In this document: in pieces, positions 33 to 14,982 of the stretch
Layout: each line of letters opens with the position of its first letter
Numbering within the stretch: the first letter of the stretch is position 1
DNA from: a virus
Reading direction: 5' to 3' (one strand)
Length of the DNA: 42,466 nt
Virus record (IMG/VR): IMGVR_UViG_3300021356_000044
Location: 1 to 42,466 of that record
Notes under the pieces: model-generated
Told to the model about the DNA's origin: nothing
Seen by the model: the letters and a program-made list of their open reading frames with translations, nothing else
The model's database searches: none
Translations under genes and position numbers: made by a program

Positions 33-77
33 GGTTACTCCCCAGGTATACCAGCCTGGGGAGTCCCGTCAAGATTA
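33..77 (-). promoter_or_regulatory. 45-bp promoter-operator unit, Cys-arm variant
   Basis: This entry defines the layout shared by all copies. Read on the minus strand: -35 TTGACG (67-72), a 16-bp spacer ending in TGG (extended -10), -10 TATACC (45-50). A palindrome with 10-bp arms (37-46 and 55-64) surrounds the -10, separated by 8 bp. TAACC and a GGAGG follow about 10 bp later. In this copy the arms read ACTCCCCAGG / CCTGGGGAGT. It drives the gene entering at the left edge. Confidence 0.85.
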
Positions 78-599
78 TCAGCCAGCGTTGTTTTTCCGCT
101 CCCAAGGTGGGCGGAAATCTCCCGCCACCCAATCATGCTCATAACGCTGGCGCATCGCCTGGATTCTATCCAGGGGGACGCCATGAGTATTCCGAGCGGC
201 AAGCTGCTCGTCCTTACACCCGTCGCCATCGAATAGGTCCAGAATCTTAATTCGGACATTGTACCCCTGCTCATTAAGCCGAGATTCAATGTCAATGTAA
301 GGGGCAATCTCCCAAGCCTGGGTAAACGTGTTTGCCACGTACACGTCACAACCATTCCTAAGCGCCCGCGCAGTACGTTTCTGATTCCAGAGGTGGGCAG
401 GACCGAGTTTCCCCCCGTCGAAGTTATAGACTCCCTTATCGTCTACGAAAAAGTCATCCGTGGAGTAAACCACGGATTTCTGTCCCGCGAGATTTGCAGC
501 GCGAGACAACGCGCTAGCGAAAGTGGACTTTCCACTCCCCGGCAGCCCACGAACGAGAGTGAGGATAACCAGTTGAGTTGTCTCGTTGAGCTTCTGCAT
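78..599 (-). CDS. P-loop kinase-like ATPase (AAA_33 / N4BP2-like)
   Basis: 173 aa. Residues 18-26 (GLPGSGKST) are a clear Walker A. TDDFF near 47-51 and VANTF near 88 match the pattern of small P-loop kinases of the AAA_33 group, which includes N4BP2-like proteins and the kinase part of phage polynucleotide kinases. The substrate cannot be read from the sequence; a nucleotide or RNA/DNA 5' end is possible by family. The fold is well supported, the activity is inferred. The start ATG follows GGAGG by 7 nt and the gene has its own promoter at 625..669. It is the only gene with a recognisable enzyme fold in the first 5 kb, and is more GC-rich than the replication genes. Confidence 0.8.
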   Translation of the reverse strand: MQKLNETTQLVILTLVRGLPGSGKSTFASALSRAANLAGQKSVVYSTDDFFVDDKGVYNFDGGKLGPAHLWNQKRTARALRNGCDVYVANTFTQAWEIAPYIDIESRLNEQGYNVRIKILDLFDGDGCKDEQLAARNTHGVPLDRIQAMRQRYEHDWVAGDFRPPWERKNNAG

Positions 600-624
600 A
601 TGTGTACCTCCGTAGTACGTCCTT

Positions 625-669
625 GGTTACTCCCCAGGTATACCAGCCTGGGAGTACCAGTCAAGATTA
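625..669 (-). promoter_or_regulatory. promoter-operator unit (one arm shifted)
   Basis: Same 45-bp layout as 33..77, with -35 TTGACT. One base is missing from the -35-proximal arm and one is gained beside it, so total length and promoter spacing are kept while the dyad is imperfect. Drives the kinase-like gene 78..599. Confidence 0.8.
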
Positions 670-674
670 TCAGT

Positions 675-896
675 CTAGAATTTAGGCACCACGCGGTAGC
701 AGCACCTACAGGGGAGCCAGTCAGCGCGCCTACCAAGCCGCTCACCCAACTCAACCCACACTTTATGTGCCAGCCTCCGTTGAGCCCGAAGGCCCAGCCC
801 TGGGTGCCTCATCCTACCCCCACCCAAGGGGAGAAACCCCTTGAGCGCCAGAGCCCCACGATAAGTCTCGTTTTGAGCACGCACGCCATTGTTCAT
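675..896 (-). CDS. small basic protein, unknown
   Basis: 73 aa, rich in Arg, Gly and Leu, with a CRCC cluster near the C-terminus. No family recognised. The ATG follows GGAGG by 7 nt, downstream of the promoter at 912..956, and the stop lies just before the next promoter. This layout is the main evidence for the gene. The DNA is GC-rich compared with the rest of the window. Confidence 0.6.
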   Translation of the reverse strand: MNNGVRAQNETYRGALALKGFLPLGGGRMRHPGLGLRAQRRLAHKVWVELGERLGRRADWLPCRCCYRVVPKF

Positions 897-911
897 GTAG
901 TGTCCTCCGTT

Positions 912-956
912 GGTTACTCCCCAGGTATACCACCCTGGGGAGTCCCGTCAAGATTA
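912..956 (-). promoter_or_regulatory. promoter-operator unit, Cys-arm variant
   Basis: Canonical layout, -35 TTGACG, -10 TATACC, arms ACTCCCCAGG / CCTGGGGAGT (both arms changed together). Drives 675..896. Confidence 0.85.
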
Positions 957-957
957 T

Positions 958-1305
958 CTAGCCAGCTTTATGGGAGGTGTTGCCAGCGCCCACCCACGTT
1001 CCATAACTCATGCCCGAGCCCCCATGAGTTTGGTTTCTAGGGTCAGACCAACGATTGTTTTGGTTTGTGGAAACCATTGCATGGTCCGGCCTTTCTTTTC
1101 TTTTGCCGCGCACTTTTTTGTCACTACCGAAATGGTATTCGATTGCAGCCTTCACAACCCCCGGCACATAGGGGCAGTCAATGTTTTCATGCACATCTAG
1201 AATGTGCTCCCAGAGGATATCACCCTCGATATCCTCAAGGCCCGGTATCTCTTCTTGAAAGTCTTTTGACTGGTATACTTTTTTGACTAGTGCATCAGAC
1301 CACAT
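958..1305 (-). CDS. hypothetical protein, basic C-terminal half
   Basis: 115 aa. The N-terminal 65 residues are acidic and probably folded (LEDIEGDILWEHILDVHENI region). The C-terminal 50 are Lys/Arg/Gly/Ser-rich and low in hydrophobics. No family recognised. GGAGG-TCACT-ATG start and its own promoter at 1321..1365. Confidence 0.65.
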   Translation of the reverse strand: MWSDALVKKVYQSKDFQEEIPGLEDIEGDILWEHILDVHENIDCPYVPGVVKAAIEYHFGSDKKVRGKRKERPDHAMVSTNQNNRWSDPRNQTHGGSGMSYGTWVGAGNTSHKAG

Positions 1306-1320
1306 AGTGACCTCCGTTCT

Positions 1321-1365
1321 GGTTACTCCCTAGGTATACCAGCCTAGGGAGTCCCGTCAAGATTA
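1321..1365 (-). promoter_or_regulatory. promoter-operator unit
   Basis: Canonical copy with CCTAGG-type arms, -35 TTGACG. Leader carries two extra bases before AACGGAGG. Drives 958..1305. Confidence 0.85.
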
Positions 1366-1791
1366 TCAACACCCCCCGTTGCAAATATGCATCACCACCG
1401 TGGGGTAGCCCATTCCATCGGGGGCGTACATCTCCTGAATCTCCCCGTGCTTACCGCACGCATCGCACTCATCCTGAAAAATGCCGGGGGTAACATCCTC
1501 CATAAATTTGGCGAATCGCTCATATTTGAGTTTTTCCGCTGCTTTCTCCCGGTTGAGAGATTCACGGGTCTGATAATGGCCTTCCTCGATAGCCACGGGC
1601 AGCTTCAACCCGTGTTTTACTTCAACCTCGATAAGCTGTTTGGCAATACTGAGGCTAGGCACCACCTCAGTACCATCGGCCAGAGTACTGCCAGCCTCAC
1701 GGTAGGCTTTGATAGCCTTGATGCGTCCACCGCCCTCCCAGGTGTTGAGAATCTCCTGAGAAGGGACAGGCCAACATGCAATTTTACTCAT
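1366..1791 (-). CDS. hypothetical protein with C-terminal Cys cluster
   Basis: 141 aa. The C-terminal 40 residues carry CDACGKHGE (CxxC) and a terminal HICNGGC, a likely zinc site made of two Cys pairs. The N-terminal part (residues 20-95) is helical and charged. Family not recognised. Start ATG follows GGAGG by 7 nt; promoter at 1807..1851. Confidence 0.7.
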   Translation of the reverse strand: MSKIACWPVPSQEILNTWEGGGRIKAIKAYREAGSTLADGTEVVPSLSIAKQLIEVEVKHGLKLPVAIEEGHYQTRESLNREKAAEKLKYERFAKFMEDVTPGIFQDECDACGKHGEIQEMYAPDGMGYPTVVMHICNGGC

Positions 1792-1806
1792 ATCTCATCC
1801 TCCGTT

Positions 1807-1851
1807 GGTTACTCCCTAGGTATACCACCCTAGGGAGTACCGTCAAGATTA
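1807..1851 (-). promoter_or_regulatory. promoter-operator unit
   Basis: Canonical copy, perfect CTCCCTAGG / CCTAGGGAG dyad. Drives 1366..1791. Confidence 0.88.
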
Positions 1852-1852
1852 T

Positions 1853-2113
1853 TTAGTCAAAAGGTACTCCTCTTCGATAGTCGTAAGGAGGTGACTCCCA
1901 GCACCACACACCCTCAGTGACCTTCCGACCGTACTTCTTTGTATGCGCCAAGTGCCCATACCTCTCTTTAAAGACACGGACTTTTATGTTCAAGCTTGTC
2001 TGCCTCTCCCTCCTGCCTGGAAAAAGCCTATCGAAATACTCATTCGCCAATTCTGCCGTAGGCGCAATGACCGTCCAAGAACACTCCATCAGTTCCGTTG
2101 TCGCTACCCACAT
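1853..2113 (-). CDS. hypothetical protein
   Basis: 86 aa, Trp/Tyr/Arg-rich, compact with no low-complexity part. Contains AELANEYFDRLFPGRRER, resembling an amphipathic helix. No family recognised. GGAGG-TCAGT-ATG start, own promoter at 2127..2171. Confidence 0.65.
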   Translation of the reverse strand: MWVATTELMECSWTVIAPTAELANEYFDRLFPGRRERQTSLNIKVRVFKERYGHLAHTKKYGRKVTEGVWCWESPPYDYRRGVPFD

Positions 2114-2126
2114 ACTGACCTCCGTT

Positions 2127-2171
2127 GGTTACTCCCTAGGTATACCAGCCTAGGGAGTACCGTCAAGATTA
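2127..2171 (-). promoter_or_regulatory. promoter-operator unit
   Basis: Canonical copy. Drives 1853..2113. Confidence 0.87.
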
Positions 2172-2172
2172 T

Positions 2173-2403
2173 CTAGCCAGCTTCCCTTGAGGCAATAGCC
2201 TCCTCTGCAATTCCAAACTCCCCACAAACATATTTGAGTAGATCAAGACCACTGCTGTACTCAACCTCGACCTTGACCACTGGCCCATACCTGTAGACAT
2301 CACACGCCTCAACCGCAGCCAGCGCAGCACGCTTTGTACGCTCCCGCACTGAGTAGCACTCATGGTCATCTAGGCACTGTGCATACCAGTAAACTACTTT
2401 CAT
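2173..2403 (-). CDS. hypothetical protein
   Basis: 76 aa, alternating strands and helices (VYWYAQCLDDHECYSV, then an Ala-rich helix). No family recognised. Start uses GGAG with 8-nt spacing after the promoter at 2419..2463. Confidence 0.65.
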   Translation of the reverse strand: MKVVYWYAQCLDDHECYSVRERTKRAALAAVEACDVYRYGPVVKVEVEYSSGLDLLKYVCGEFGIAEEAIASREAG

Positions 2404-2418
2404 GTAGTTTACTCCGTT

Positions 2419-2463
2419 GGTTACTCCCTAGGTATACTACCCTAGGGAGTCCCGTCAAGATTA
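2419..2463 (-). promoter_or_regulatory. promoter-operator unit
   Basis: Canonical copy with TAG instead of TGG before the -10, so the extended -10 is weakened. Drives 2173..2403. Confidence 0.85.
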
Positions 2464-2784
2464 TCAGGCGGTGAATCGTCGTGGGTCTTCTATAAACAAA
2501 GACTCCGAACCATCGTACTCATGTAACCCAAAGCGTTGCCCCTGAGGTACATACTCAATCGACACGTCATCCCAGCCGCCACAGTAAACGTCGTCGTATC
2601 CCATATTTTCCAAAAGAAGCTTTACCTCACCCTCGTTCAACCCTCGTTCACAGGCTTGAACAAGTTTCGGGTGAAACAGTAAAGTCTCCTGATACTCAAG
2701 GTTCCATGTACTCCACCCAGCACCAAAATTCTCAGATACCAGAACCGCAACATTACCATCAACGATTACACGCTCAACACTCAT
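2464..2784 (-). CDS. conserved phage hypothetical protein (FGAGWSTW type)
   Basis: 106 aa, acidic. Residues around 16-27 (LVSENFGAGWSTWN) and the later YVPQGQRF...EYDGSE segment resemble, from memory, a small protein widespread in phages with the same GAGW-TW and EYDG-E signatures and no known function. GGAGG-TCATT-ATG start; promoter at 2801..2845. Confidence 0.75.
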   Translation of the reverse strand: MSVERVIVDGNVAVLVSENFGAGWSTWNLEYQETLLFHPKLVQACERGLNEGEVKLLLENMGYDDVYCGGWDDVSIEYVPQGQRFGLHEYDGSESLFIEDPRRFTA

Positions 2785-2800
2785 AATGACCTCCGATGTT

Positions 2801-2845
2801 GGTTACTCCCTAGGTATACCACCCTAGGGAGTACCGTCAAGATTA
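2801..2845 (-). promoter_or_regulatory. promoter-operator unit
   Basis: Canonical copy; leader variant with CATCGGAGG. Drives 2464..2784. Confidence 0.87.
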
Positions 2846-2846
2846 G

Positions 2847-3164
2847 TTAGTTGAATAAATCTCTACGGAATATTTCGCGCCACCCCTCTGGCATCTTTTT
2901 CCAACTAGATGGGGTATATGTAGTAGTGCAAGGCCAGCCCCGGTGACTATTTATCGCCAGGAATACAGGCTGTGCAATGGGAGAGCAGTAGTGGAATTTT
3001 TCATCTATAGGGTTGTCCCCAGAGTATTCCACCACTAGCTCGGCCATGCGACCGCTGCTGTACTGGTCACGAATAGTATCTTCGATATACGCGACCCATG
3101 CGCGCCGACCCTTCACTTTGTAGAAGTGAACCCCCGCCTTACGCTTACCGTCTACAATAGCCAT
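2847..3164 (-). CDS. hypothetical protein
   Basis: 105 aa, mixed alpha/beta composition with several Trp and Tyr, and a basic C-terminus (SSWKKMPEGWREIFRRDLF). No family recognised. GGAGG start with 8-nt spacing; promoter 3183..3227. Confidence 0.65.
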   Translation of the reverse strand: MAIVDGKRKAGVHFYKVKGRRAWVAYIEDTIRDQYSSGRMAELVVEYSGDNPIDEKFHYCSPIAQPVFLAINSHRGWPCTTTYTPSSWKKMPEGWREIFRRDLFN

Positions 3165-3182
3165 GCTTTCATCCTCCGTTCT

Positions 3183-3227
3183 GGTTACTCCCTAGGTATA
3201 CCAGCCTAGGGAGTACCGTCAAGATTA
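3183..3227 (-). promoter_or_regulatory. promoter-operator unit
   Basis: Canonical copy. Drives 2847..3164. Confidence 0.87.
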
Positions 3228-3479
3228 TCTCTCCCAGTAGTTCTTAGCAATGCCGCGTGAGATATCACGCGCCCTCATTGAAATCTCAAGAATTTGAGCA
3301 TTGTGATCAGGGTGGTAGAGACAATGATCGGCCATTGTTGCTACAGCCGAAAACTTACCGCTGAGAATCAACAGACGCTCCCGCTTAGCTGGAGTTCTAG
3401 GTTCCCCACTCACCTCCATAGCCTCTACCTCCCATGAGATAAGAACCTCAATAATCTCAGCGCTCAGAATTTTGCTCAT
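3225..3479 (-). CDS. hypothetical helical protein
   Basis: 84 aa. The reading frame stays open upstream through the promoter, but the true start is the ATG at 3479, just behind CGGAGG. Sequence is largely helical, with ATMADHCLYHPDHNAQILEI in the middle. Its stop overlaps the 3' end of the promoter unit at 3183..3227. Promoter 3494..3538. Function unknown. Confidence 0.65.
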   Translation of the reverse strand: MSKILSAEIIEVLISWEVEAMEVSGEPRTPAKRERLLILSGKFSAVATMADHCLYHPDHNAQILEISMRARDISRGIAKNYWER

Positions 3480-3493
3480 GTTCAACCTCCGTT

Positions 3494-3538
3494 GGTTACT
3501 CCCTAGGTATACCAGCCTAGGGAGTACCGTCAAGATTA
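3494..3538 (-). promoter_or_regulatory. promoter-operator unit
   Basis: Canonical copy. Drives 3225..3479. Confidence 0.87.
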
Positions 3539-3539
3539 T

Positions 3540-3872
3540 CTAGCCAGAGTACTGCCACACCGGGTCACATGGCAGGAGCGATTCAGACTCCATAGTCAGA
3601 ATCACTTTTCTGGGAGTGTGCTCCTCACAGAAGTTTTTGAGCCACGCCCGCACCTTCCTAGGGCAGTCCTCTCGCTGATTGAAGTGGTGCTCAATCAGGA
3701 ACCCTCCAGGGGACTGGTCCACAGAATCGAACCTCTCACACAGGTTCGCCCACATGACACCCATTTTTCGGGCGTACAGTTTGCGTCGAGCCTCAGAGCC
3801 CAATCCGTACTTAGTATACCAGCTAGGGAGGTCAGGGTATACTGAGATGTATACTGAAGTGTACTGGCTCAT
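3540..3872 (-). CDS. hypothetical protein
   Basis: 110 aa. N-terminus is Tyr/Ser-rich (QYTSVYISVYPDLPSWYTKY), followed by a basic helix and REDCPRKVRAWLKNFCEEH. No family recognised. GGAGG-ATGAGAC-ATG start; promoter 3890..3934. Confidence 0.65.
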   Translation of the reverse strand: MSQYTSVYISVYPDLPSWYTKYGLGSEARRKLYARKMGVMWANLCERFDSVDQSPGGFLIEHHFNQREDCPRKVRAWLKNFCEEHTPRKVILTMESESLLPCDPVWQYSG

Positions 3873-3889
3873 GTCTCATCCTCCGTTCT

Positions 3890-3934
3890 GGTTACTCCCT
3901 AGGTATACCGCCCTGGGATACCAAGTCAAGATTA
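3890..3934 (-). promoter_or_regulatory. promoter-operator unit, asymmetric arms
   Basis: Same 45-bp frame with -35 TTGACT and -10 TATACC. One arm is of the CCTAGG type and the other of the CCCAGG type, so the dyad is broken at its centre. Drives 3540..3872. Confidence 0.8.
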
Positions 3935-4084
3935 GTTAGTTTTACTACTAAGCCCTAACCTCTTACGAACCTTCTCACGCTCACGCTCGACTTCCTCTTC
4001 AGTTTTCCCCTTATTGCACTGCGTTGCGTTTCTAACAATGCAGTTCATACACCAGTGAGGTGCGTCCCCACAGTAGTATCTCAT
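3932..4084 (-). CDS. 50-aa Cys-rich (zinc-finger-like) protein
   Basis: 50 aa: four Cys (residues 5, 12, 15, 23) plus His10 in the first half, then a charged helix (EEEVEREREKVRKRLGL). It looks like a small zinc finger followed by a coiled coil. An in-frame GTG two codons upstream (4090) is 5 nt from GGAGG, so initiation there is also possible. Promoter 4104..4148. The standard unit layout supports it as a gene. Confidence 0.65.
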   Translation of the reverse strand: MRYYCGDAPHWCMNCIVRNATQCNKGKTEEEVEREREKVRKRLGLSSKTN

Positions 4085-4103
4085 GCCCACACTAACCTCC
4101 GTT

Positions 4104-4148
4104 GGTTACTCCCCAGGTATACCACCCTGGGGAGTACCGTCAAGATTA
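4104..4148 (-). promoter_or_regulatory. promoter-operator unit, Cys-arm variant
   Basis: Canonical layout with arms ACTCCCCAGG / CCTGGGGAGT. Drives 3932..4084. Confidence 0.86.
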
Positions 4149-4244
4149 TCAGTCCTGCTTTCTATCTAGGTAGAATAGAATGGGAATGAGGATAATCATC
4201 CCCACAACTAGATGCTGTATAGCATCCCAATCGGGGTTACCCAT
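4149..4244 (-). CDS. 31-aa single-helix membrane peptide
   Basis: 31 aa: a short polar N-terminus, one hydrophobic helix (LVVGMIILIPILFYL, about residues 12-26) and a charged tail (DRKQD). Its ATG overlaps the stop of the 30-aa gene upstream (TAATG), so the two are translationally coupled. Function unknown; small phage membrane peptides of this kind can be holin, exclusion or lysis-control proteins, but nothing here decides that. Confidence 0.55.
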   Translation of the reverse strand: MGNPDWDAIQHLVVGMIILIPILFYLDRKQD

Positions 4245-4336
4245 TACTTACCTACCGTTTGAAAGCCATGAACGGCAGCGGCGATAAGGCCACACAAGGG
4301 GACAGACGTGAGTGTTAGAATCAGAATAGTAGTCAT
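4244..4336 (-). CDS. 30-aa membrane peptide, first of a coupled pair
   Basis: 30 aa: a hydrophobic segment (about residues 4-23, ILILTLTSVPLCGLIAAAV) and a short tail. GGAGG-TCAAT-ATG start behind the promoter 4355..4399. The stop TAA shares a base with the ATG of the next gene. Function unknown; see 4149..4244. Confidence 0.55.
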   Translation of the reverse strand: MTTILILTLTSVPLCGLIAAAVHGFQTVGK

Positions 4337-4354
4337 ATTGACCTCCGTTGTTTT

Positions 4355-4399
4355 GGTTACTCCCTAGGTATACCACCCTAGGGAGTCCCGTCAAGATTA
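4355..4399 (-). promoter_or_regulatory. promoter-operator unit
   Basis: Canonical copy. Drives the pair of tiny membrane-peptide genes 4149..4336. Confidence 0.87.
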
Positions 4400-4401
4400 T
4401 C

Positions 4402-4635
4402 CTAAAAAGAATCCTCGCGCTTCTGAATCATGCGAGCGCGCTTCGACGCACGCGGCTCGTTGTGGAATCCGTTATCACAGCAAGCGCAGTTAGGCCCACC
4501 GGGACCGAACCGATACGCCTTGCGATAGCGGCGCGTGTTTCGACGGCGAGTGAAAAACGACACGCCGTCGTCTTCACCGTAGAAGCCGCGCTTCATCTTG
4601 ATGATGAAAGGCGCATCCTTATACGTTTTACCCAT
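4402..4635 (-). CDS. small very basic protein with a Cys cluster
   Basis: 77 aa, strongly Arg/Lys-rich (RRRNTRRYRKAYRFGPGG), with CACCDNGFHNEP, a possible metal site or nucleic-acid-binding knuckle. GC-rich compared with its neighbours. GGAGG start with 7-nt spacing; promoter 4651..4695. Function unknown; nucleic-acid binding is an inference from charge. Confidence 0.65.
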   Translation of the reverse strand: MGKTYKDAPFIIKMKRGFYGEDDGVSFFTRRRNTRRYRKAYRFGPGGPNCACCDNGFHNEPRASKRARMIQKREDSF

Positions 4636-4650
4636 GTACTGTCCTCCGTT

Positions 4651-4695
4651 GGTTACTCCCTAGGTATATCACCCTAGGGAGTACCGTCAAGATTA
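4651..4695 (-). promoter_or_regulatory. promoter-operator unit
   Basis: Canonical copy with TGA instead of TGG before the -10. Drives 4402..4635. Confidence 0.86.
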
Positions 4696-5157
4696 TCAGT
4701 CTAGTTCTAGGTTAGAGAATCTAAGGTCCATTTGAGTTTTAGGTAGCTGGCGCACTTTTTCTTTTAGAGCCTCCTGCATAAATTTCTTTTCAGTTTCCAC
4801 AGCCACAGAAGGCTGCTTAGGCTCACTAGGAATATAAATCGAAGACTGCTTAGGCGCAGCCTTAGCTTTAGCCTTAGAGTTAGCAATCATTACCAACTGC
4901 TTACGGTACTTATGCGCCATGCGCTTAGCGCGCTTCTTAAATTTACCGGAAAACGGCCTACCTGTTTTCAGAAACCACTGAGCCATGTAAGTACCCATGC
5001 GGGCATCGGCACCGGAAAACCCGATACCGTTATCCTGCAACGTAGCCCCCGCGCTTTTCTCGGTAGGAGTCTGGTTATTGTAGATAGCGAGGATAGCTCG
5101 CTCAATAGCCATTGGCTTAGTGTTGAGGATGTTAACGATGTTCTCTTCTGTGTACAT
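4696..5157 (-). CDS. conserved phage/plasmid hypothetical (NGxGFsgxDA type)
   Basis: 153 aa. Residues 17-90 (ERAILAIYNNQT, DNGIGFSGADAR, KFKKRAKRMAHKYRKQL) resemble from memory a domain common in plasmid and phage proteins, with an IY-x-x-QT-x-x-E motif and NGxGF-x-x-x-DA. The second half is Lys/Ala/Pro-rich and looks unstructured. Function unknown. GGAGG-TCATT-ATG start; promoter 5171..5215. Confidence 0.75.
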   Translation of the reverse strand: MYTEENIVNILNTKPMAIERAILAIYNNQTPTEKSAGATLQDNGIGFSGADARMGTYMAQWFLKTGRPFSGKFKKRAKRMAHKYRKQLVMIANSKAKAKAAPKQSSIYIPSEPKQPSVAVETEKKFMQEALKEKVRQLPKTQMDLRFSNLELD

Positions 5158-5170
5158 AATGACCTCCGTT

Positions 5171-5215
5171 GGTTACTCCCTAGGTATACCACCCTAGGGA
5201 GTACCGTCAAGATTA
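5171..5215 (-). promoter_or_regulatory. promoter-operator unit
   Basis: Canonical copy. Drives 4696..5157. Confidence 0.88.
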
Positions 5216-5641
5216 TCCCAGAAACAAACTAACTTTATTTTCGTCTTTATCTCCTAGTGAATACTTCGAGCGAAGACAATCAGAGTGATTATGTTCTACC
5301 TCACCCTTCCAAGCGCTCCTGATTTCCTCGCACTCCTCTAGCACGCTCCTAAGCTTCATATCCCATTTTTCCTCCGTAGAGATGGGGAGAGGCTTACCAT
5401 TCTCCTTATTGAAGGCCTTTACCTCTTCAGAGAGGTCTTCAAAGCCAGCCTGAAAGTTAAAGCACTTCAGCCTAGTCTTTTGAAAAATCCATTCTTGAAT
5501 AACCCTAGGGTCAAACTTCAGGACTTCAGGCTCAGTGCGCTCCCGCACATGCTTAGAATGCACTTTGCATTCTACTAGGTTGATACCTACAGGTATCATG
5601 CTCACCCAAGCGATATTGTGGTCACAATCAACTCTTGCCAT
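5213..5641 (-). CDS. hypothetical protein
   Basis: 142 aa. N-terminal 30 residues form a short beta-rich piece (DHNIAWVSMIPVGINLVECKV), the rest is charged and helical. No family recognised. The stop lies at the edge of the promoter 5171..5215. GGAGG start with 7-nt spacing; promoter 5657..5701. Confidence 0.7.
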   Translation of the reverse strand: MARVDCDHNIAWVSMIPVGINLVECKVHSKHVRERTEPEVLKFDPRVIQEWIFQKTRLKCFNFQAGFEDLSEEVKAFNKENGKPLPISTEEKWDMKLRSVLEECEEIRSAWKGEVEHNHSDCLRSKYSLGDKDENKVSLFLG

Positions 5642-5656
5642 GTATTATCCTCCGTT

Positions 5657-5701
5657 GGTTACTCCCTAGGTATACCACCCTAGGGAGTACCGTCAAGATT
5701 A
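5657..5701 (-). promoter_or_regulatory. promoter-operator unit
   Basis: Canonical copy. Drives 5213..5641. Confidence 0.88.
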
Positions 5702-9000: not shown

Positions 9001-9045
9001 GGTTACTCCCTAGGTATATCACCCTAGGGAGTCCCGTCAAGATTA
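9001..9045 (-). promoter_or_regulatory. promoter-operator unit
   Basis: Canonical copy with TGA before the -10. Drives 8771..8980. Confidence 0.87.
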
Positions 9046-9465
9046 ACCAAACTTTAAATTCAGCTGGTCAACATCATTGTTGTCAGCTTGAGTAATTCCC
9101 TCAATAATAACAGAACCAGTAAGCATCCCATTTTTTGTCACTTCATGCTTATCCACAAGCGCTTGAAACGCTTTTGTGGCTCGCATTTTATGGTTAGCCT
9201 CTAGCTCTGCCTTTGAAGACAAAGCGTCCCGTAAAACAGACATCATTGTCTCGTCATTTACTTTAGAAAGCGCAGCCAAAGCCACAGCTTTCCAAGGCAC
9301 AGAAGGATGGCAGCGGGACGTAAACGCCTCACCACACTTCATTTTATAGGTGACTCGGATAACCTCTGAGCCTTCAAAGGTAGTGCCCTCAATCTCGTCA
9401 CGGTTATCAAGCTTTACTTTAGAAAGCGCAGCCAGAGCCATCTGAGAAACATTTTCGATAATCAT
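9043..9465 (-). CDS. hypothetical protein with an internal repeat
   Basis: 140 aa. The nonamer-like sequence ALAALSKV occurs twice (residues about 10-17 and 62-69), suggesting an internal duplication. The C-terminal part is a mixed alpha/beta region ending acidic. No family recognised. GGAGG-CTATT-ATG start; promoter 9482..9526. Confidence 0.7.
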   Translation of the reverse strand: MIIENVSQMALAALSKVKLDNRDEIEGTTFEGSEVIRVTYKMKCGEAFTSRCHPSVPWKAVALAALSKVNDETMMSVLRDALSSKAELEANHKMRATKAFQALVDKHEVTKNGMLTGSVIIEGITQADNNDVDQLNLKFG

Positions 9466-9481
9466 AATAGCCTCCGATGTT

Positions 9482-9526
9482 GGTTACTCCCTAGGTATAC
9501 CACCCTAGGGAGTACCGTCAAGATTA
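9482..9526 (-). promoter_or_regulatory. promoter-operator unit
   Basis: Canonical copy. Drives 9043..9465. Confidence 0.88.
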
Positions 9527-9527
9527 G

Positions 9528-9860
9528 TTACCAAGTTTTTACTTGGATGCTAATATACTCTAGGTCCCCTACTTCGTATCTATGCTTATTCTCATTATAC
9601 ATAAATGTCTGAATATAAGTATCACCCATATTCACATAGTAAAAACCGTTATGGTACTCCACACCATGACCGTCTAAAATCTCATTGGCTGCTATCATCA
9701 CTCGGTAATACTTACTAAACGGGTGATATGCCGTCCTATCAGCTTTTCTTACGTCAGAGAAACAGCCAGCCATTTCCTCATTACGCACAAGCAAGTGTAG
9801 CAGGTTGGCTGCATCCCAATCTTCAAGCGCATCATTAATTTTCTTTTTAGAGATAGGCAT
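9528..9860 (-). CDS. hypothetical protein
   Basis: 110 aa. Helical first half (INDALEDWDAANLLHLLVRN), beta-rich second half with many Tyr (EYHNGFYYVNMGDTYIQTF). No family recognised. ATG 8 nt after GGAG chosen; a TTG two codons earlier is too close. Promoter 9879..9923. Confidence 0.68.
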   Translation of the reverse strand: MPISKKKINDALEDWDAANLLHLLVRNEEMAGCFSDVRKADRTAYHPFSKYYRVMIAANEILDGHGVEYHNGFYYVNMGDTYIQTFMYNENKHRYEVGDLEYISIQVKTW

Positions 9861-9878
9861 AATCAATTCTCCGATGTT

Positions 9879-9923
9879 GGTTACTCCCCAGGTATACCAC
9901 CCTGGGGAGTCCCGTCAAGATTA
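9879..9923 (-). promoter_or_regulatory. promoter-operator unit, Cys-arm variant
   Basis: Canonical layout with arms ACTCCCCAGG / CCTGGGGAGT. Drives 9528..9860. Confidence 0.86.
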
Positions 9924-10331
9924 CCTGAGCAAATTGTCCAGCCATCGCTGGCGAGCGTTGCGGTGCACATCCTCAACAAATCTCGCCTTTCTGAAATTGT
10001 CCTTATTTCTAGAAATTGTATCCCTCGTTAATTCAGAATTGTTTTTTCTCAATTTTAAACCAGCGCCGAGAATCTGTGCTTTGACTGCCCAATCACAAAG
10101 ACCATCCAAGGCATAGATGGCGGTAGAGCTTTTGTCATAGCCTTTGAGAAACTGACGAATAACCCTTGCCTTTGCCTCTAGGCTAGAATCGCAGTTATCC
10201 TTTTTAGCTAGCTTTTCAGCATCCGTAAGACCCCAGCGCCATTTACTATCTAAGGCGTCAACCGTCCACATAATGCCCTGCCATCCATCGCGAATGGTCT
10301 GTGCTTCTTTTTTCGTGTAAGTAATTCCCAT
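9921..10331 (-). CDS. hypothetical helical basic protein
   Basis: 136 aa, mostly helical and basic at its C-terminus (KARFVEDVHRNARQRWLDNLL). No family recognised. Start ATG behind GGAGG (spacing 8 nt). Promoter 10350..10394. Confidence 0.7.
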   Translation of the reverse strand: MGITYTKKEAQTIRDGWQGIMWTVDALDSKWRWGLTDAEKLAKKDNCDSSLEAKARVIRQFLKGYDKSSTAIYALDGLCDWAVKAQILGAGLKLRKNNSELTRDTISRNKDNFRKARFVEDVHRNARQRWLDNLLR

Positions 10332-10349
10332 TGTCTATCCTCCGATGTT

Positions 10350-10394
10350 GGTTACTCCCTAGGTATACCACCCTAGGGAGTACCGTCAAGATTA
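10350..10394 (-). promoter_or_regulatory. promoter-operator unit
   Basis: Canonical copy. Drives 9921..10331. Confidence 0.88.
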
Positions 10395-10395
10395 C

Positions 10396-10731
10396 TTAAC
10401 TCTCTTTGAGAGATTTGTAGTAATCTTCAAAAGAAGAAAACTCTCCCTGCAAAGACCTATCCTCTTGATAGTCAGAATAAAGTTTTGCAATCTTATCTTT
10501 GTTTTTAATCCAGACGTTCATGTCATACTCTACAGCGCGCTGGATATCATATCCAAGGTCATCCCATTCGGGAGTATGCTTGTTACACTCCGAGATTTTA
10601 GCTTCAAAATCTCTCGGAGTGATTTGCTTTTGAAAAAGCACCATCGCATCAACAGCCTCTTTAAAGGTCTTGAAGTAAACAGTGCCAGTGTTGTAAGAAT
10701 AAAATGTATAGATACTGTCTTTCTTAGCCAT
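10396..10731 (-). CDS. hypothetical protein
   Basis: 111 aa, Tyr/Lys/Asp-rich, alternating strands and helices (SIYTFYSYNTGTVYFKTFKE at the N-terminus). No family recognised. Two adjacent ATGs follow GGAGG; the second (6 nt) is taken. Its promoter at 10746..10790 is one of the divergent copies. Confidence 0.68.
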   Translation of the reverse strand: MAKKDSIYTFYSYNTGTVYFKTFKEAVDAMVLFQKQITPRDFEAKISECNKHTPEWDDLGYDIQRAVEYDMNVWIKNKDKIAKLYSDYQEDRSLQGEFSSFEDYYKSLKES

Positions 10732-10745
10732 CATTAACCTCCGTT

Positions 10746-10790
10746 GGTTACACTCTCTAAGTACCACCCTTAAAAATGCAATCAAGAAAA
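10746..10790 (-). promoter_or_regulatory. divergent promoter unit without a dyad
   Basis: 45-bp frame kept: -35 TTGATT, TGG, -10 TACTTA. The arms (ATTTTTAAGG / TAGAGAGTG) are not complementary. It lies directly after the terminator 10797..10828. Probably weak. Drives 10396..10731. Confidence 0.65.
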
Positions 10791-10796
10791 AGAGAC

Positions 10797-10828
10797 AAAA
10801 AAACCCTACTCAAATAAATTGAGTAGGG
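10797..10828 (-). terminator. intrinsic terminator after paralogue B
   Basis: On the minus strand a 10-bp perfect stem (CCCTACTCAA and its complement, loop 5 nt) is followed by seven T. It ends transcription of 10862..11044. Confidence 0.85.
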
Positions 10829-10861
10829 CTTATTGCTCAGACTGAAATTGTTAGTCTGTAA

Positions 10862-11044
10862 CTACTCGTCCTCTTCCTCTTCCTCAACGGCAGACTCAAG
10901 AGCCTCCATAAAGAAACCGTGAACCTCGTCCACAGTTGTCTCATAAAGAGTAAAAGACTTAGATTGACCTTTCTCGCCCTTAGTGAAGGGGTACTTAGAA
11001 ATGGTAACCTTAACCTGCTCCTGCTGCTCATTCTTCAAACGCAT
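10862..11044 (-). CDS. 60-aa protein with acidic tail, paralogue B
   Basis: 60 aa: MRLKNEQQEQ, then the same short core as 7749..7928 and an EEEEEDE tail. The two copies differ at about nine of the first 51 positions. AGGAG start with 8-nt spacing. Unlike its neighbours it is closed by an intrinsic terminator and opened by a separate promoter (11097..11124), so it forms an isolated single-gene unit next to the large gene-poor region. Role unknown. Confidence 0.75.
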   Translation of the reverse strand: MRLKNEQQEQVKVTISKYPFTKGEKGQSKSFTLYETTVDEVHGFFMEALESAVEEEEEDE

Positions 11045-11058
11045 AATAAATTCTCCTA

Positions 11059-11080
11059 AAATGGCTTGCTTTCAAGCCTT
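11059..11080 (-). promoter_or_regulatory. leader hairpin upstream of paralogue B
   Basis: In the transcript a GGCTTG / CAAGCC stem (6 bp, 4-nt loop) lies about 8 nt upstream of the AGGAG. It could stabilise the 5' end or affect initiation. Confidence 0.4.
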
Positions 11081-11096
11081 TAAACTTTCTGCCCCT

Positions 11097-11124
11097 TAGA
11101 TACCACATCCAAGGCACATGTCAA
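11097..11124 (-). promoter_or_regulatory. sigma70-type promoter of paralogue B
   Basis: -35 TTGACA (11119-11124), 16-bp spacer ending TGG, -10 TATCTA (11097-11102). No long palindrome at the start site. Confidence 0.72.
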
Positions 11125-11684
11125 TGCTTCCTGCACGCATTTACATCACGAATTAAATTTTGTTCGTGTCTGCGTTGAGTGCATCGTGCCCCCAACTCTC
11201 AACCTACTTCTAGCACAGTTGTAATCACAGTCAAGTAGTGTCGAGCTTTTTTTCGCCACCCATGAAATATCGCTCGCGTATGCGCGCACCTACGCGCGCA
11301 CGTAGAGCTATAGTGAATTTTTACACCAAAATATTAATTTATTCTAATATTTTTATTAATTTTTACACTAAATTGAGATACTTTTGCATCCCACCAAACC
11401 CTAATGATTGCAGTAACTTAGCTGAAACCGAGTGCGATTGCTCCCGAGGGTAGACAACGCCACAATCACTAGATACTAAAAAGAGTATATAATTTTGTAA
11501 ACTAAGTAGAAATTTTAGTTTTGAGTATACTTTTTTCTTGCAATCTGTGCAGAGCAGCTAGCCAGCCCCCATCTCATACCAGCCTAGCCAGGAATTGCCA
11601 GAAAAGCCCCTAGAATCGACGTTTCAAGGCTCAGCCTACCGGCAGACCGTCTGAAGGCCAGAAATTGCCGTAGACAGGCTTATT
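11125..11684. other. 560-bp gene-poor region, possible replication origin or control region
   Basis: No convincing gene on either strand. It contains a CACGAA...TTCGTG inverted repeat (11147-11168), GTTGAG...CTCAAC (11174-11202), a GC-alternating block with CTACG/CGTAG arms (11270-11305), an A/T-rich block with two AATTTTTACAC copies (11316-11367), two GAGTATA copies near 11483 and 11523, then a GC-richer part with repeated CTGGC words (11550-11665). A plus-strand frame at 11238..11453 has no ribosome-binding site. The density of repeats and the base-composition switch are typical of origins, but this is inference. Confidence 0.45.
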
Positions 11685-11975
11685 CTAGGCCTTGTAGCCA
11701 TCTCCGAGGTAATGGAGGAGGGTGCTTGTGGTGCAGCCCTTAATAAATTGCCGAATCGCATCCTCAAAACAATCGCCATAAATTGCGATTGGCGATTGCT
11801 CATCAATTAAAAATACTCCCCAGGAATATTGCCGGTCCATCCTAACTGCCTGGAATCTCATTCGATTTATAACTATCGAATAGTAACCAGTGACATGGTT
11901 ATGAACTACTTTTGTCTTGTCGATTACTACTGGTAAGTATTTTTGAATCTCACCTACGAAATTGTCTAGCGTCAT
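11685..11975 (-). CDS. hypothetical protein
   Basis: 96 aa from the ATG at 11975. The frame stays open 16 codons further to a TTG with no ribosome-binding site. Ile/Val/Asp-rich alpha/beta protein (SIVINRMRFQAVRMDRQYSW, FEDAIRQFIKG). Family not recognised. No unit-type promoter upstream; the A/T-rich repeats at 12165..12207 may serve it. Confidence 0.55.
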   Translation of the reverse strand: MTLDNFVGEIQKYLPVVIDKTKVVHNHVTGYYSIVINRMRFQAVRMDRQYSWGVFLIDEQSPIAIYGDCFEDAIRQFIKGCTTSTLLHYLGDGYKA

Positions 11976-12230
11976 AAAAATATTGTCCTGAGTGTCTTGT
12001 GCGAAAATATTGTCACGAAACAATAAGCATTGCGCGCAAAAAAATTGCCGACTTTCCCCTAATGATTACCACCCTTTGCAGCTATTTCAAGATGAAATAC
12101 CAACAATTCAAATTTCAGAAAATTTTCAAAAAATTGCGACAGAGAGGAGGGGGCACCTCCATTATATACTAAATATTATACTAGTTTTCTATACTAAATA
12201 TTATACTTAAATGATACACTAACTAAAAAA
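11976..12230. other. A/T-rich intergenic region
   Basis: 255 bp without a supported gene. It holds a GGAGG/CCTCC inverted repeat (12146-12160) and the 18-bp direct repeats listed at 12165..12207. The words AAATTGCCG and AAATTGCGA recur here and in the flanking gene. Confidence 0.4.
12165..12207. repeat. two 18-bp direct repeats, 25-bp period
   Basis: TATACTAAATATTATACT occurs exactly at 12165-12182 and 12190-12207. On the minus strand each copy includes TATAAT, so they may be tandem -10 elements, iterons or binding sites for gene 11685..11975. A shorter related piece lies near 12213. Confidence 0.6.
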
Positions 12231-12425
12231 CTAATCCTCAACAATATTGGAAAGGGCTTGTGTAATGCTTTCCCTAAGTCGTCTATCGTCATGGGGCATC
12301 TTCATGCTGCTGGTTCGGGTTACCCTGACTATAAGGGAAAGGGCTTGTAGGATTACCTTTTGATTGGCTTCTATCCTCTCTACCCTTGCTAGGGCTTCCT
12401 TGCTTTGGAATCCTCCTAAATTCAT
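12231..12425 (-). CDS. hypothetical helical protein
   Basis: 64 aa, mostly helical (SKEALARVERIEANQKVILQ, RRLRESITQALSNIV). The ATG overlaps the stop of 12422..12592 (ATGA) and the ribosome-binding site lies inside the 31-bp repeat. Last gene of the short operon 12231..13265. Function unknown. Confidence 0.65.
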   Translation of the reverse strand: MNLGGFQSKEALARVERIEANQKVILQALSLIVRVTRTSSMKMPHDDRRLRESITQALSNIVED

Positions 12426-12452
12426 CTCCTATCTAGCTCCTGCATAATCTCT
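12422..12452. repeat. 31-bp direct repeat, copy 1
   Basis: Exactly identical to 12600-12630. It encodes the C-terminal IMQELDRR and stop of the gene, and on the same strand an AGGAG ribosome-binding site. Confidence 0.8.
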
Positions 12453-12592
12453 AGTTCTTGCAGTTGGTTTTCATGATACTTTATTTCTTCTCTATAGCGG
12501 GCTACTTCATTTTCTAATCTGTCTAATTCTTTCTTTAGGTAGATTAGGTTTCCTTTTAAGACTTGTTCTCTAGTTAGTTTCTTTGGGTACAT
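12422..12592 (-). CDS. 56-aa coiled-coil protein
   Basis: 56 aa, continuous heptad-like helix (LKKELDRLENEVARYREEI...). Ends in EIMQELDRR, the same nine residues as the upstream gene 12600..12779, because both 3' ends are the same 31-bp DNA repeat. AGGAG 11 nt before ATG. Function unknown; homodimerisation is likely from the heptads. Confidence 0.65.
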   Translation of the reverse strand: MYPKKLTREQVLKGNLIYLKKELDRLENEVARYREEIKYHENQLQELEIMQELDRR

Positions 12593-12599
12593 AGATTAG

Positions 12600-12630
12600 T
12601 CATCTCCTATCTAGCTCCTGCATAATCTCT
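12600..12630. repeat. 31-bp direct repeat, copy 2
   Basis: Second copy, 178 bp from the first; same frame and same position at the 3' end of a gene. A duplication that moved a gene end together with the start signal of the following gene. Confidence 0.8.
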
Positions 12631-12779
12631 TCAAACTCCCCTTCATCAATCCCGGTGTTTTGGATAAAGTAGTTCATAATCTTTTTATAATCCCAGCCGA
12701 GTTGGAATCTTAGTTTATTAACTATGTTATCTATTGCGGGGTAATTATTTGTTAGGATGTAATTCTTAAGAGTATTCAT
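12600..12779 (-). CDS. 59-aa hypothetical protein
   Basis: 59 aa: a helical protein (NYPAIDNIVNKLRFQLGWDY, KKIMNYFIQNTGIDEGEF) ending in the repeat-encoded EIMQELDRR. The ribosome-binding site is weak. It follows 12785..13009 by 5 nt, so it is cotranscribed. Function unknown. Confidence 0.62.
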   Translation of the reverse strand: MNTLKNYILTNNYPAIDNIVNKLRFQLGWDYKKIMNYFIQNTGIDEGEFEEIMQELDRR

Positions 12780-12784
12780 TTGGG

Positions 12785-13009
12785 TTACTCAAACAATTTA
12801 TTATCTGCGTATCTAATCTGCCCACCATCACAAATAAACACATCGTCAGGTTTTCCTGGGTGTTTTTCGTTTGGCTCTAGCGCGTCTCCTCTATGGATGA
12901 CATGGGAGATATCGTGTTCAAAAGGGTAGTGCCGTAGCCAAACGGCTAGTAGGACATTGGCGTTGTCGTCATGTAGCTCTAGTATCTCTCTTAATTCTTT
13001 TACTGTCAT
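12785..13009 (-). CDS. conserved phage protein of the MTV-x-ELxxxL type
   Basis: 74 aa: MTVKELREILELHDDNANV..., then a beta-rich half with FICDGGQIRYAD. Short phage proteins starting MTV-x-ELI-x-x-L-x-x-x-DPDAxV are common and uncharacterised; the match is from memory. ATG 10 nt after AGGA; a GTG ten codons upstream overlaps the previous gene and has no ribosome-binding site. Confidence 0.65.
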   Translation of the reverse strand: MTVKELREILELHDDNANVLLAVWLRHYPFEHDISHVIHRGDALEPNEKHPGKPDDVFICDGGQIRYADNKLFE

Positions 13010-13028
13010 TTGTAAGTAGTCCTTTTGG

Positions 13029-13265
13029 TTACATCCCACTGATGGCTTTTCTGATATTAGACTTAGTGTATCTTTTACCGTTTGGGGTATGTGCTGAATC
13101 GTTTAAGAATTGAGTACACCCAGGGAATACGCCTTGATTTAATAGACTGAGAATAGATTCTGCTACTGAATCAAGGGTATGCTCTCTGAGTCTGCATAGC
13201 TCAATATGCTTGTTCACGTCGTAATCAGACAAAAGGTAATTAGTTATACTTTGTGCTGTTTTCAT
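13029..13265 (-). CDS. hypothetical protein
   Basis: 78 aa. Helical, with a basic C-terminus (RYTKSNIRKAISGM) resembling the DNA-contact end of small helical regulators, but not diagnostic. The frame runs upstream through the promoter; the true start is the ATG 7 nt after GGAGG. First gene behind promoter 13286..13330. Confidence 0.65.
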   Translation of the reverse strand: MKTAQSITNYLLSDYDVNKHIELCRLREHTLDSVAESILSLLNQGVFPGCTQFLNDSAHTPNGKRYTKSNIRKAISGM

Positions 13266-13285
13266 ATCTATACCTCCGTTGTTTT

Positions 13286-13330
13286 GGTTACATCCCTGGT
13301 ATACCAGCCTAGGGAGTACCGTCAAGATTA
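13286..13330 (-). promoter_or_regulatory. promoter-operator unit, one arm altered
   Basis: -35 TTGACG and -10 TATACC kept. The start-site arm reads CCAGGGATG instead of CCTAGGGAGT, so the dyad is partial. Drives the operon 13265 to 12231. Confidence 0.82.
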
Positions 13331-13396
13331 TGCTTTGTTCTGAAAAGGTGAAAGTGAGATTAATAAAAAAGAAATGGCTAGTATCGTAGTTAACAT
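13328..13396 (-). CDS. 22-aa hydrophobic membrane peptide
   Basis: 22 aa: MLTTILAISFLLISLSPFQNKA, a single hydrophobic helix with a short polar tail. AGGAG lies 6 nt before the ATG but within a hairpin (13401..13422). The stop touches the promoter 13286..13330. Size and hydrophobicity resemble type I toxin-like or leader peptides; no family can be assigned. Confidence 0.5.
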   Translation of the reverse strand: MLTTILAISFLLISLSPFQNKA

Positions 13397-13400
13397 TATT

Positions 13401-13422
13401 CGCTCCTGTGTTTATGGGAGCG
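13401..13422 (-). promoter_or_regulatory. hairpin covering the ribosome-binding site of the 22-aa peptide
   Basis: Minus strand: CGCTCC and GGAGCG form a 6-bp perfect GC-rich stem with a 10-nt loop. The GGAG of the ribosome-binding site is in the stem, so translation should be low unless the hairpin is opened. Confidence 0.55.
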
Positions 13423-13428
13423 GGGGCT

Positions 13429-13635
13429 TTACCCTAGTCGAATCCTTTGTTCAAGGGCTTCCTTCTCTCTAGTGAAAGTTTGGAATAAGTTTTCATTGGG
13501 TAGGTCGCCTTTCCTCGTTTTTGCTACCTCTACCCAATCAGAGTTTTCTAAACAGAATTCGATATTATCTAGGTGGCAGTCGTCACAATAGATAAGGCTA
13601 GTTTCTACTTCGCAGCCTATGCATGTTAGTGCCAA
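13429..13635 (-). CDS. small zinc-ribbon-like protein
   Basis: 68 aa. CIGC (residues 5-8) and CDDC (17-20) form a likely Cys4 zinc site at the N-terminus; the rest is a charged helix. Start is TTG, 7 nt after GGAG, one base after the stop of 13637..13810. Function unknown. Confidence 0.65.
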   Translation of the reverse strand: MALTCIGCEVETSLIYCDDCHLDNIEFCLENSDWVEVAKTRKGDLPNENLFQTFTREKEALEQRIRLG

Positions 13636-13636
13636 T

Positions 13637-13810
13637 TTACTTCTCCCAGCCTAGTACAAATTCACCTAACAGATTCTCTCCCTTGATTAACTCAAGTTTG
13701 TCTACGTCTATTGATTTGTAGAGTGTGGTCATGGCTTCGTGGGCTTGTTCTTTTTTTGTGAATGAGTATTTACTTATTCTCATTCCTGAAGTTACTTTTA
13801 CTAGCCACAT
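13637..13810 (-). CDS. 57-aa hypothetical protein
   Basis: 57 aa: a beta strand (WLVKVTSGMRISKYSF), a helix (KKEQAHEAMTTLYKSI) and a second strand (KLELIKGENLLGEFVLGW), a beta-alpha-beta unit. GAGG 9 nt before ATG. Cotranscribed with the genes on both sides. Confidence 0.65.
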   Translation of the reverse strand: MWLVKVTSGMRISKYSFTKKEQAHEAMTTLYKSIDVDKLELIKGENLLGEFVLGWEK

Positions 13811-13843
13811 AATATATTGCCTCGTTATTTATATTTTTATATC

Positions 13844-14086
13844 TCAGAATTGTAGTGGGCGATAATGCACATGCTTCTCTAATAGTTTACGCTCTTCGTA
13901 TTCTTTGGCTTCCTCATGGCTGTCATGCGTAGCTGGTGTCCCATCATCTAGCATTGAGTAGCCAATAGTCTCTACGCTTGGAATCGTACCGCCCTGCACA
14001 AGAGCGTATCGTACCCACCAGCTACCCTTACGTACCCAGTCGCCAATCCAAGCGAAGTCTCCAGATTTAAATTCTATGGTTTTCAT
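13844..14086 (-). CDS. hypothetical protein
   Basis: 80 aa. Trp-rich beta part (FAWIGDWVRKGSWWVRYALV) followed by an acidic helix (HDSHEEAKEYEERKLLEKH). No family recognised. GAGG 8 nt before ATG; promoter 14102..14146. Confidence 0.66.
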   Translation of the reverse strand: MKTIEFKSGDFAWIGDWVRKGSWWVRYALVQGGTIPSVETIGYSMLDDGTPATHDSHEEAKEYEERKLLEKHVHYRPLQF

Positions 14087-14101
14087 TTGTAGTGCCTCTT
14101 T

Positions 14102-14146
14102 GGTTACTCCCTAGGTATACCACCCTAGGGAGCACCGTCAAGATTA
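14102..14146 (-). promoter_or_regulatory. promoter-operator unit
   Basis: Canonical copy. Drives 13844..14086 and probably the genes down to 13328. Confidence 0.87.
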
Positions 14147-14431
14147 TCTCACCCTACTAATCATCGTATCGAATTTTCTTTTCTCGATTTCTGCCATGTC
14201 CATAGCAATATGATGTGATGCGTAAGACAATGCCTTGCTAGCCTTCACTAATTCTTCTTTTGCTTTCTGGATATGCTCCGACAGTACCTCTGTATTGTTA
14301 TCTTCAATGGAGCCGCCCAGCCAGTGTACTTTAAACTGATTTGATTGTCTGATAGCCATTAGTTTTGAATTTAGCTTTTCAAGCTGCTTCCAAACAATTT
14401 CATGGTCTGTGAATTGTTTTTCTTTTTCCAT
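14144..14431 (-). CDS. helical hypothetical protein
   Basis: 95 aa, nearly all helical and charged (HIQKAKEELVKASKALSYA), likely coiled coil. The ATG at 14431 lies 2 nt after the stop of 14433..14636, so the three genes 14636-14144 form an operon. An in-frame ATG eight codons upstream overlaps that gene. Function unknown. Confidence 0.66.
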   Translation of the reverse strand: MEKEKQFTDHEIVWKQLEKLNSKLMAIRQSNQFKVHWLGGSIEDNNTEVLSEHIQKAKEELVKASKALSYASHHIAMDMAEIEKRKFDTMISRVR

Positions 14432-14432
14432 T

Positions 14433-14636
14433 TTAATACACCACCAAAGTATCATCGCCTGTTACTTTAGCGATAATCTTCCTGTTTGCAGTTACTTCAC
14501 CATCTTTCCAAACGGTTGCATACCCAATAGATAAAACAATTGTTTCTGAGATACCCCAGGTATCATCTTCCCAACATTCGTCTTCTTTAAGACTACTCAT
14601 AGTGTCGAGAATGTATTCTTTATCGTTTTCAGTCAT
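14433..14636 (-). CDS. hypothetical protein
   Basis: 67 aa, acidic first half, beta-rich second half (TIVLSIGYATVWKDGEV, RKIIAKVTGDDTLVVY). The ATG overlaps the stop of the upstream gene (TAATG), with GAGG 7 nt upstream. Function unknown. Confidence 0.66.
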   Translation of the reverse strand: MTENDKEYILDTMSSLKEDECWEDDTWGISETIVLSIGYATVWKDGEVTANRKIIAKVTGDDTLVVY

Positions 14637-14917
14637 TAGTTAGCCTCTTGGCCAGATGGGAGGAATGCGAGTAAGGGCCTTCCTGTGTTTCGGTCTTGAA
14701 TCTCAATTATCTCGAAATTATCCCAATCAACCCTAACCCTTCCTTTTGAATAATCAGTCAGCCAATTATTTCTACGCATAAATTTAAGTAATTGTCTAGT
14801 TGTAGTATCGTCATCGATATAAATTTTATCTTCTACGTTAGATACGTTAAATACGTCATTCCAATACCAGCCAGACTCGTCTCGCCATGCATCAATAGAC
14901 ACTAGTTTGTACATCAT
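14636..14917 (-). CDS. hypothetical protein
   Basis: 93 aa. Mixed alpha/beta (DDTTTRQLLKFMRRNNWLTD, VRVDWDNFEIIEIQDR). Two adjacent ATGs follow GGAGG (8 and 11 nt); the first is used. First gene behind promoter 14938..14982. No family recognised. Confidence 0.67.
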   Translation of the reverse strand: MMYKLVSIDAWRDESGWYWNDVFNVSNVEDKIYIDDDTTTRQLLKFMRRNNWLTDYSKGRVRVDWDNFEIIEIQDRNTGRPLLAFLPSGQEAN

Positions 14918-14937
14918 CGTGTAAGCCTCCATTGTTT

Positions 14938-14982
14938 GGTTACTCCCTAGGTATACCACCCTAGGGAGTCCCGTCAAGATTA
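14938..14982 (-). promoter_or_regulatory. promoter-operator unit
   Basis: Canonical copy. Drives the three-gene operon 14917 to 14144. Confidence 0.88.

Follow-up and report, generated by a model that had tools for sequence, protein, structure and literature searches.

Why should some thirty small genes of one phage each follow a near-identical promoter-like unit with a palindrome wrapped round its -10 element? The window, by which we mean the whole stretch of DNA analysed, is virus record IMGVR_UViG_3300021356_000044 (42,466 bases, an incomplete genome). A first-pass annotation had read the palindrome as an operator built into each promoter, at which a single dyad-binding regulator could switch dozens of genes at once. 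Here, we propose that the units are probably composite intergenic cassettes resembling the promoter early stem-loops (PeSLs) of T4-like phages, in which the promoter of the next gene would be combined with an RNA stem-loop closing the previous one, and we put the probability of this reading at roughly 0.7. The support from this analysis consists of the anatomy and position of the units, RNA pairing on the sense strand, dependence on the upstream gene, and a match in geometry to phage RB49.

Outside the array, the window encodes a DnaB-type helicase, a primase, a family A DNA polymerase, a gp32-like SSB, RecA and SbcCD, along with a terminase with a GpA-type ATPase domain, a dUTPase, HNH nucleases and tRNAs. 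Judged by these genes, this is a virus of bacteria outside the T4 group. Its terminase shares at most about 31% identity with those of known phages (Pseudomonas, Aeromonas, Thermus and others). In the nearest relative compared, the polymerase is 94% identical, and the available stretch of that relative stops short of the array.

Anatomy of the array

A canonical unit was defined by a match to TTGACNNNANTCCCNNGGNNGGTATACCNNGGGAGTAACC with no more than three mismatches. Scanning the 42,466 bases on both strands, together with a reversed control, returned 30 units on the minus strand and none on the plus strand or in the control; three divergent units, ending at 7054, 10786 and 15378, bring the total to 33. 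The scan and its controls confirm the first-pass count of 30 canonical and three divergent units before small genes on one strand, but the range given for them, 33-14982, holds for the canonical units and leaves the third divergent one (15338..15378) outside.

Twenty-seven canonical units lie within 33..10390 on the minus strand (plus-strand ends 73, 665, 952, 1361, 1847, 2167, 2459, 2841, 3223, 3534, 3930, 4144, 4395, 4691, 5211, 5697, 6087, 6417, 6793, 7493, 8211, 8511, 8765, 9041, 9522, 9919 and 10390), each with one small gene behind it. The other three (13286-13326, 14102-14142 and 14938-14978, also minus) each head several genes. About 45 small minus-strand genes make up the array (78..15324), nearly all without known families. 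One promoter per gene, as had been claimed, is nearly strict from 0 to about 11 kb and gives way from 11 to 15 kb to units that may head several genes; the sequence lends good support to an arrangement in which each gene has its own promoter-like unit. Two adjoining small genes share an exact 31-nt repeat over their 3' ends (12422-12452 and 12600-12630), and both of their proteins terminate in IMQELDRR.

Each unit has the layout TAAT-CTTGAC-N17-TATACC-TAACC..GGAGG directly 5' of a small gene, and the aligned block reads TAAT-CTTGACGG-TACTCCCTAGG-GTGGTATA-CCTAGGGAGTA-ACC-AACGGAGG-ATG. The dyad is TACTCCCTAGG-GTGGTATA-CCTAGGGAGTA, with the -10 at its centre and the extended -10 within its 8-nt loop. 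It had been described as a palindrome of 10+10 bp round the -10; the position stands, and the extent becomes 11+8+11, falling to 10 pairs in units whose outermost left base is G. Nor are the elements constant throughout, as first described: the extended TGG varies at five units (TAG at 2459, TGA at 4691 and 9041, CGG at 3930 and 6087), GGAGG at four (changed at 2459, 9041 and 9919, absent at 14142), and one divergent unit (10746..10786, TTGATT) has TTGAT in place of TTGAC. TAAT lies 5' of CTTGAC in about 29 of the 33 units and is often the stop codon of the upstream gene. The reading frame begins 46-66 nt past the unit start in 32 units, the gene of the first leaving the contig.

From these elements, we infer that transcription would start at the units. 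The -10, TATACC, does not end in the usual T, which counts against the promoter/stem-loop reading; sigma70 sites were not in excess in a generic promoter scan, since that scan requires a T as the sixth base of the -10.

DNA dyad or RNA hairpin

A dyad of 10-11 bp over the -10, perfect in most units, occupies the classic position for a repressor. A DNA operator, at which one dimeric regulator of the phage or the host sits over every -10 and switches all the small genes, would account for this, for a position changed on both sides of the dyad in four units, and for the near-identity of the thirty copies, which to that extent counts against the PeSL-like reading. The change in question is T-A to C-G on both arms, and its four instances are possibly copies of one event. 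As canonical copies cannot separate a DNA dyad from an RNA hairpin, the imperfect copies were taken as the test.

In the divergent units, duplex symmetry is mostly lost and the sense strand still pairs over 10-13 bp. The unit at 7014..7054 folds at -11.2 kcal/mol on the sense strand vs -5.9 on the antisense, with two G-U pairs; the corresponding values are -9.7 vs -2.0 (five G-U pairs) at 10746..10786 and -8.0 vs -1.5 (three G-U pairs) at 15338..15378, all three units being on the minus strand. Variants with G-U pairs also occur in units 6793, 7493 and 14142, and in the first of these two such pairs complete the pairing (-17.8 sense, -9.6 antisense). Significance was assessed with shuffles that preserve the core sequence, giving p = 0.003-0.05 per divergent unit and a combined p of about 1e-6 over six non-canonical promoters, namely the three divergent units and three promoters outside the array (below). 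When G-U pairs are disallowed, or on the antisense strand, the signal from the same six is weak. This argues that what the divergent units preserve is pairing in RNA, and of the sense strand alone, not a DNA dyad as an operator would have it, with few independent units behind the G-U argument. Single-strand hairpin promoters of the N4 type were considered and set aside, as was cruciform extrusion, a misfit with G-U pairs on one strand only.

Relation to the upstream gene

An upstream stop codon lies no more than 11 nt from CTTGAC in 29 of the 33 units, with unit 4144 scored through a short ORF and unit 6793 through an upstream frame that runs into the unit. That frame (6776-7000) is open into the unit at 6753-6793 and stops at a TAG within the left arm. 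Four units lie far from any upstream gene, and as a group they have the weakest hairpins (-12.1, -11.2, -9.7 and -8.0 kcal/mol vs about -20 in the others; Mann-Whitney p 0.0006). Three of the four are preceded by a separate hairpin or terminator: among these, a clear intrinsic terminator with a T tract (10801..10831, minus) separates gene 10862-11044 from the divergent unit 10746-10786, and a strong hairpin, GAGGGGGAGAGG..CCTCTCTCCCTC (7055-7140, -28.6 kcal/mol), separates gene 7141-7434 from the divergent unit 7014-7054. Thus weak hairpins go with a previous gene that already has an end structure, or with the lack of any nearby gene. This dependence on the upstream gene counts against an operator, and a role for the hairpin at the end of the upstream transcript fits better than promoter switching. 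No U tract follows the stem, so termination is not predicted under standard rules, a point against the promoter/stem-loop reading.

Hairpins at other promoters of the phage and its relatives

Three non-array promoters on the minus strand carry hairpins whose arms are unrelated in sequence to those of the array. The promoter of gene 10862-11044 (11085..11124) has a hairpin of -14.3 kcal/mol over its -10 (p 0.0005 for 11124), that of the DUF932 gene 19284-20102 (20148..20188) a dyad AGTGGT..ACCACT round the -10 (p = 0.057), and that of tRNA-Leu (16756..16797) a weak dyad ATGTAC..GTACAT round the -10 (p = 0.093 for 16796). Across the window, then, the duplex sequence is kept in 30 units and lost in three, while other promoters have unrelated hairpins instead, and such replacement at the same place is a further point against an operator. 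Gene 10862-11044 (60 aa) and gene 7749-7928 (59 aa), both on the minus strand, encode small acidic paralogues with the sequence MRLxNxQQEQVKVTISKYPF; both have non-array promoters (11124 and 8012) and their own separate leader hairpins, and homologues occur in two related contigs (L025 and L032).

Among TTGAC..TGGTA promoters of the nearest relatives, hairpins are found at G005 95085, G009 19538 and L015 15308, and none at G010 30584 or G004 34463. The first (G005, a record of 128,195 bases; L013 12457 is the same site) has a perfect 9-bp dyad GACTACTTA..TAAGTAGTC round the -10, and the second (G009, the contig of L017) a perfect 9-bp dyad TAGTAATAC..GTATTACTA in the same place. These two are distant relatives, with terminases 63-64% identical, and these are single promoters with dyad sequences other than that of the array.

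The earlier annotation had suggested searching related phages for the dyad; among the other viruses searched, none was found to carry the array. The array dyad was absent from the other viruses, phage records and species genomes searched, and no host regulon or CRISPR spacer match was found in GTDB species genomes. Array protein 9043-9465 led to no relatives, and array protein 5702-6028 was dropped as a route to them, since it matched numerous contigs unrelated to one another, some of which carry start-associated repeats of other kinds.

Other start-associated repeats were seen in four contigs. The first (L056, 4271-7081), an unrelated virus contig, has eight TTTACAGGAGTAAA palindromes directly 5' of ATG with the Shine-Dalgarno at their centre. 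Another (L055, 145-10111) carries GGAGTTGACAAAA nine times, in most cases with a -10-like box and then a gene start after it, and with no dyad noticed. A 459-kb virus contig (L054, 3803-11339) has six copies of TGATACCAACTAG, mostly 5' of ribosome sites, some of which fold GTTGG-TGATA-CCAAC hairpins across a stop codon, and a 232-kb virus contig (L040, 1124-7865) has eight scattered copies of CTCTTATCCTAGT, mostly 5' of genes.

Comparison with known systems

PeSLs are reported as cassettes between the small early genes of RB49/phi1 and other T4-like phages, where they are said to mediate gene shuffling, and the title of the paper calls them 'composite conserved promoter-terminator motifs' (Arbiol 2010). 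The RB49 stem-loops are reported to act as terminators, in line with that title. We measured RB49 directly, using 26 early promoters that lie between genes and abut a stop codon. Of these, 17 carry a hairpin below -7 kcal/mol, centred +0.5 to +2.5 nt from the -10 start in 12 and lying in the spacer in 5; in the window units the centre is at -0.5 nt. A typical RB49 stem-loop reads tag-TTGACACAACAAAACGGGGGTAGTAATATACCCCCATC, with no U tract.

The window matches this arrangement in having many intergenic copies (33 units on one strand, with sigma70-like promoters of the form TTGAC-N17-TATA or a close variant), a stop codon abutting TTGACA, a stem-loop combined with the promoter and set round the -10, a Shine-Dalgarno next and typically no U tract. 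It differs in its longer stems (10-13 bp vs about 7-10 bp) and in its near-uniform sequence, which is unrelated to that of the RB49 PeSLs. Unlike the phages that carry PeSLs, this phage is not T4-like, having a family A polymerase and a gpA-type terminase.

Other systems are less close. In the haloarchaeal virus HGTV-1, a promoter element and an inverted repeat lie 5' of most ORFs in one region, which its authors liken to PeSLs; the window shares a promoter with an inverted repeat before ORFs, but in the HGTV-1 copies examined the promoter is archaeal and the repeat is downstream of the TATA box, whereas the window dyad is on the -10. The SAS/ESAS of cluster K mycobacteriophages and the 17-bp dyads of cluster O are likewise repeats, many at the starts of small non-structural genes and some inverted, but SAS marks the start of translation, most dyads of cluster O lie away from promoters, and neither is described over a -10. 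Cluster A stoperators are 13 bp long. They are described as asymmetric repressor sites that stop elongation, unlike the window units, which are symmetric and on promoters.

Alternative explanations

What regulator might an operator serve? No integrase, lysogeny repressor or other repressor was recognised in the window, the only candidates for DNA binding being an RHH protein of 54 aa and a zinc ribbon; the 42-kb fragment of an incomplete genome yields no specific candidate for a cognate regulator. The RHH protein (35746-35910), put forward in the first-pass annotation, has a conserved position within the replication module of relatives; no array was found in the stretches of them examined, and the protein was rejected on this ground. 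The absence of the dyad from every GTDB genome and other virus searched adds to this. A dyad serving as operator for one regulator is not borne out, given the RNA pairing, the unrelated hairpins, the dependence on the upstream gene and the RB49 layout; it is the less likely reading, and we consider it unlikely. Distinctly unlikely, in our estimate, is a version in which a dyad-binding regulator, perhaps encoded outside the fragment, binds a 28-30 bp site at about 30 promoters and the symmetry is put to further use in the RNA hairpin. If this were true, such a regulator would switch the whole accessory gene set at once.

We also considered a translational switch of the kind known from T4 genes e, soc, 49 and I-TevI, whose late promoters are embedded in hairpins that fold only in read-through RNA. 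Read-through RNA in the window would then block the next ribosome site, leaving only RNA from the embedded promoter to be translated (the model here being e, soc and I-TevI). The topology is alike, with a promoter inside a hairpin and the left arm missing from self-initiated RNA, and the predicted accessibility of the Shine-Dalgarno averages 0.37 in read-through RNA vs 0.50 in own RNA. The T4 hairpins hide the ribosome site, whereas the window stem stops 6-16 nt short of the Shine-Dalgarno and excludes it; the accessibility difference is small, is reversed in several units, and was too slight for simple sequestration to be retained. As such a switch also leaves the weakening of hairpins at far upstream genes unexplained, we judge it quite improbable. 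Copying alone, by which one cassette with a chance, functionless dyad was recently duplicated, draws on the local copying that clustered leader variants indicate, but is very improbable, as paired changes and G-U-preserving ones are seen in the older, divergent units, and other promoters have hairpins of different sequence.

Proposed role of the units

As PeSL-like spacers, the units would give the upstream gene its stop codon (TAAT) and the next gene a sigma70-like extended -10 promoter and a Shine-Dalgarno. In RNA read through from upstream, the stem-loop would form directly past the upstream stop codon, where it probably ends, trims or insulates the upstream transcript, giving each small gene its own mRNA. 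Self-initiated RNA, having no left arm, would not fold and would leave the next gene undisturbed. Recombination between units is the likeliest reason for the near-identity of the copies, and gene cassettes may be shuffled in the same way. Adjacent units share leader variants in 11 cases vs 4.6 in shuffled order (p 0.001), a clustering that fits local copying or recombination.

This reading would extend the promoter/stem-loop arrangement known from T4-like phages to a phage unrelated to them, in which the copies are cleaner and more numerous than in the parts of RB49 examined. As a way of packing many small, independent genes, the arrangement looks general and is perhaps convergent. The reading also suggests that, at phage promoters, symmetry can reflect the RNA structure of read-through transcripts; given the G-U evidence on the sense strand and the tie to the upstream gene, an operator should not be the default reading.
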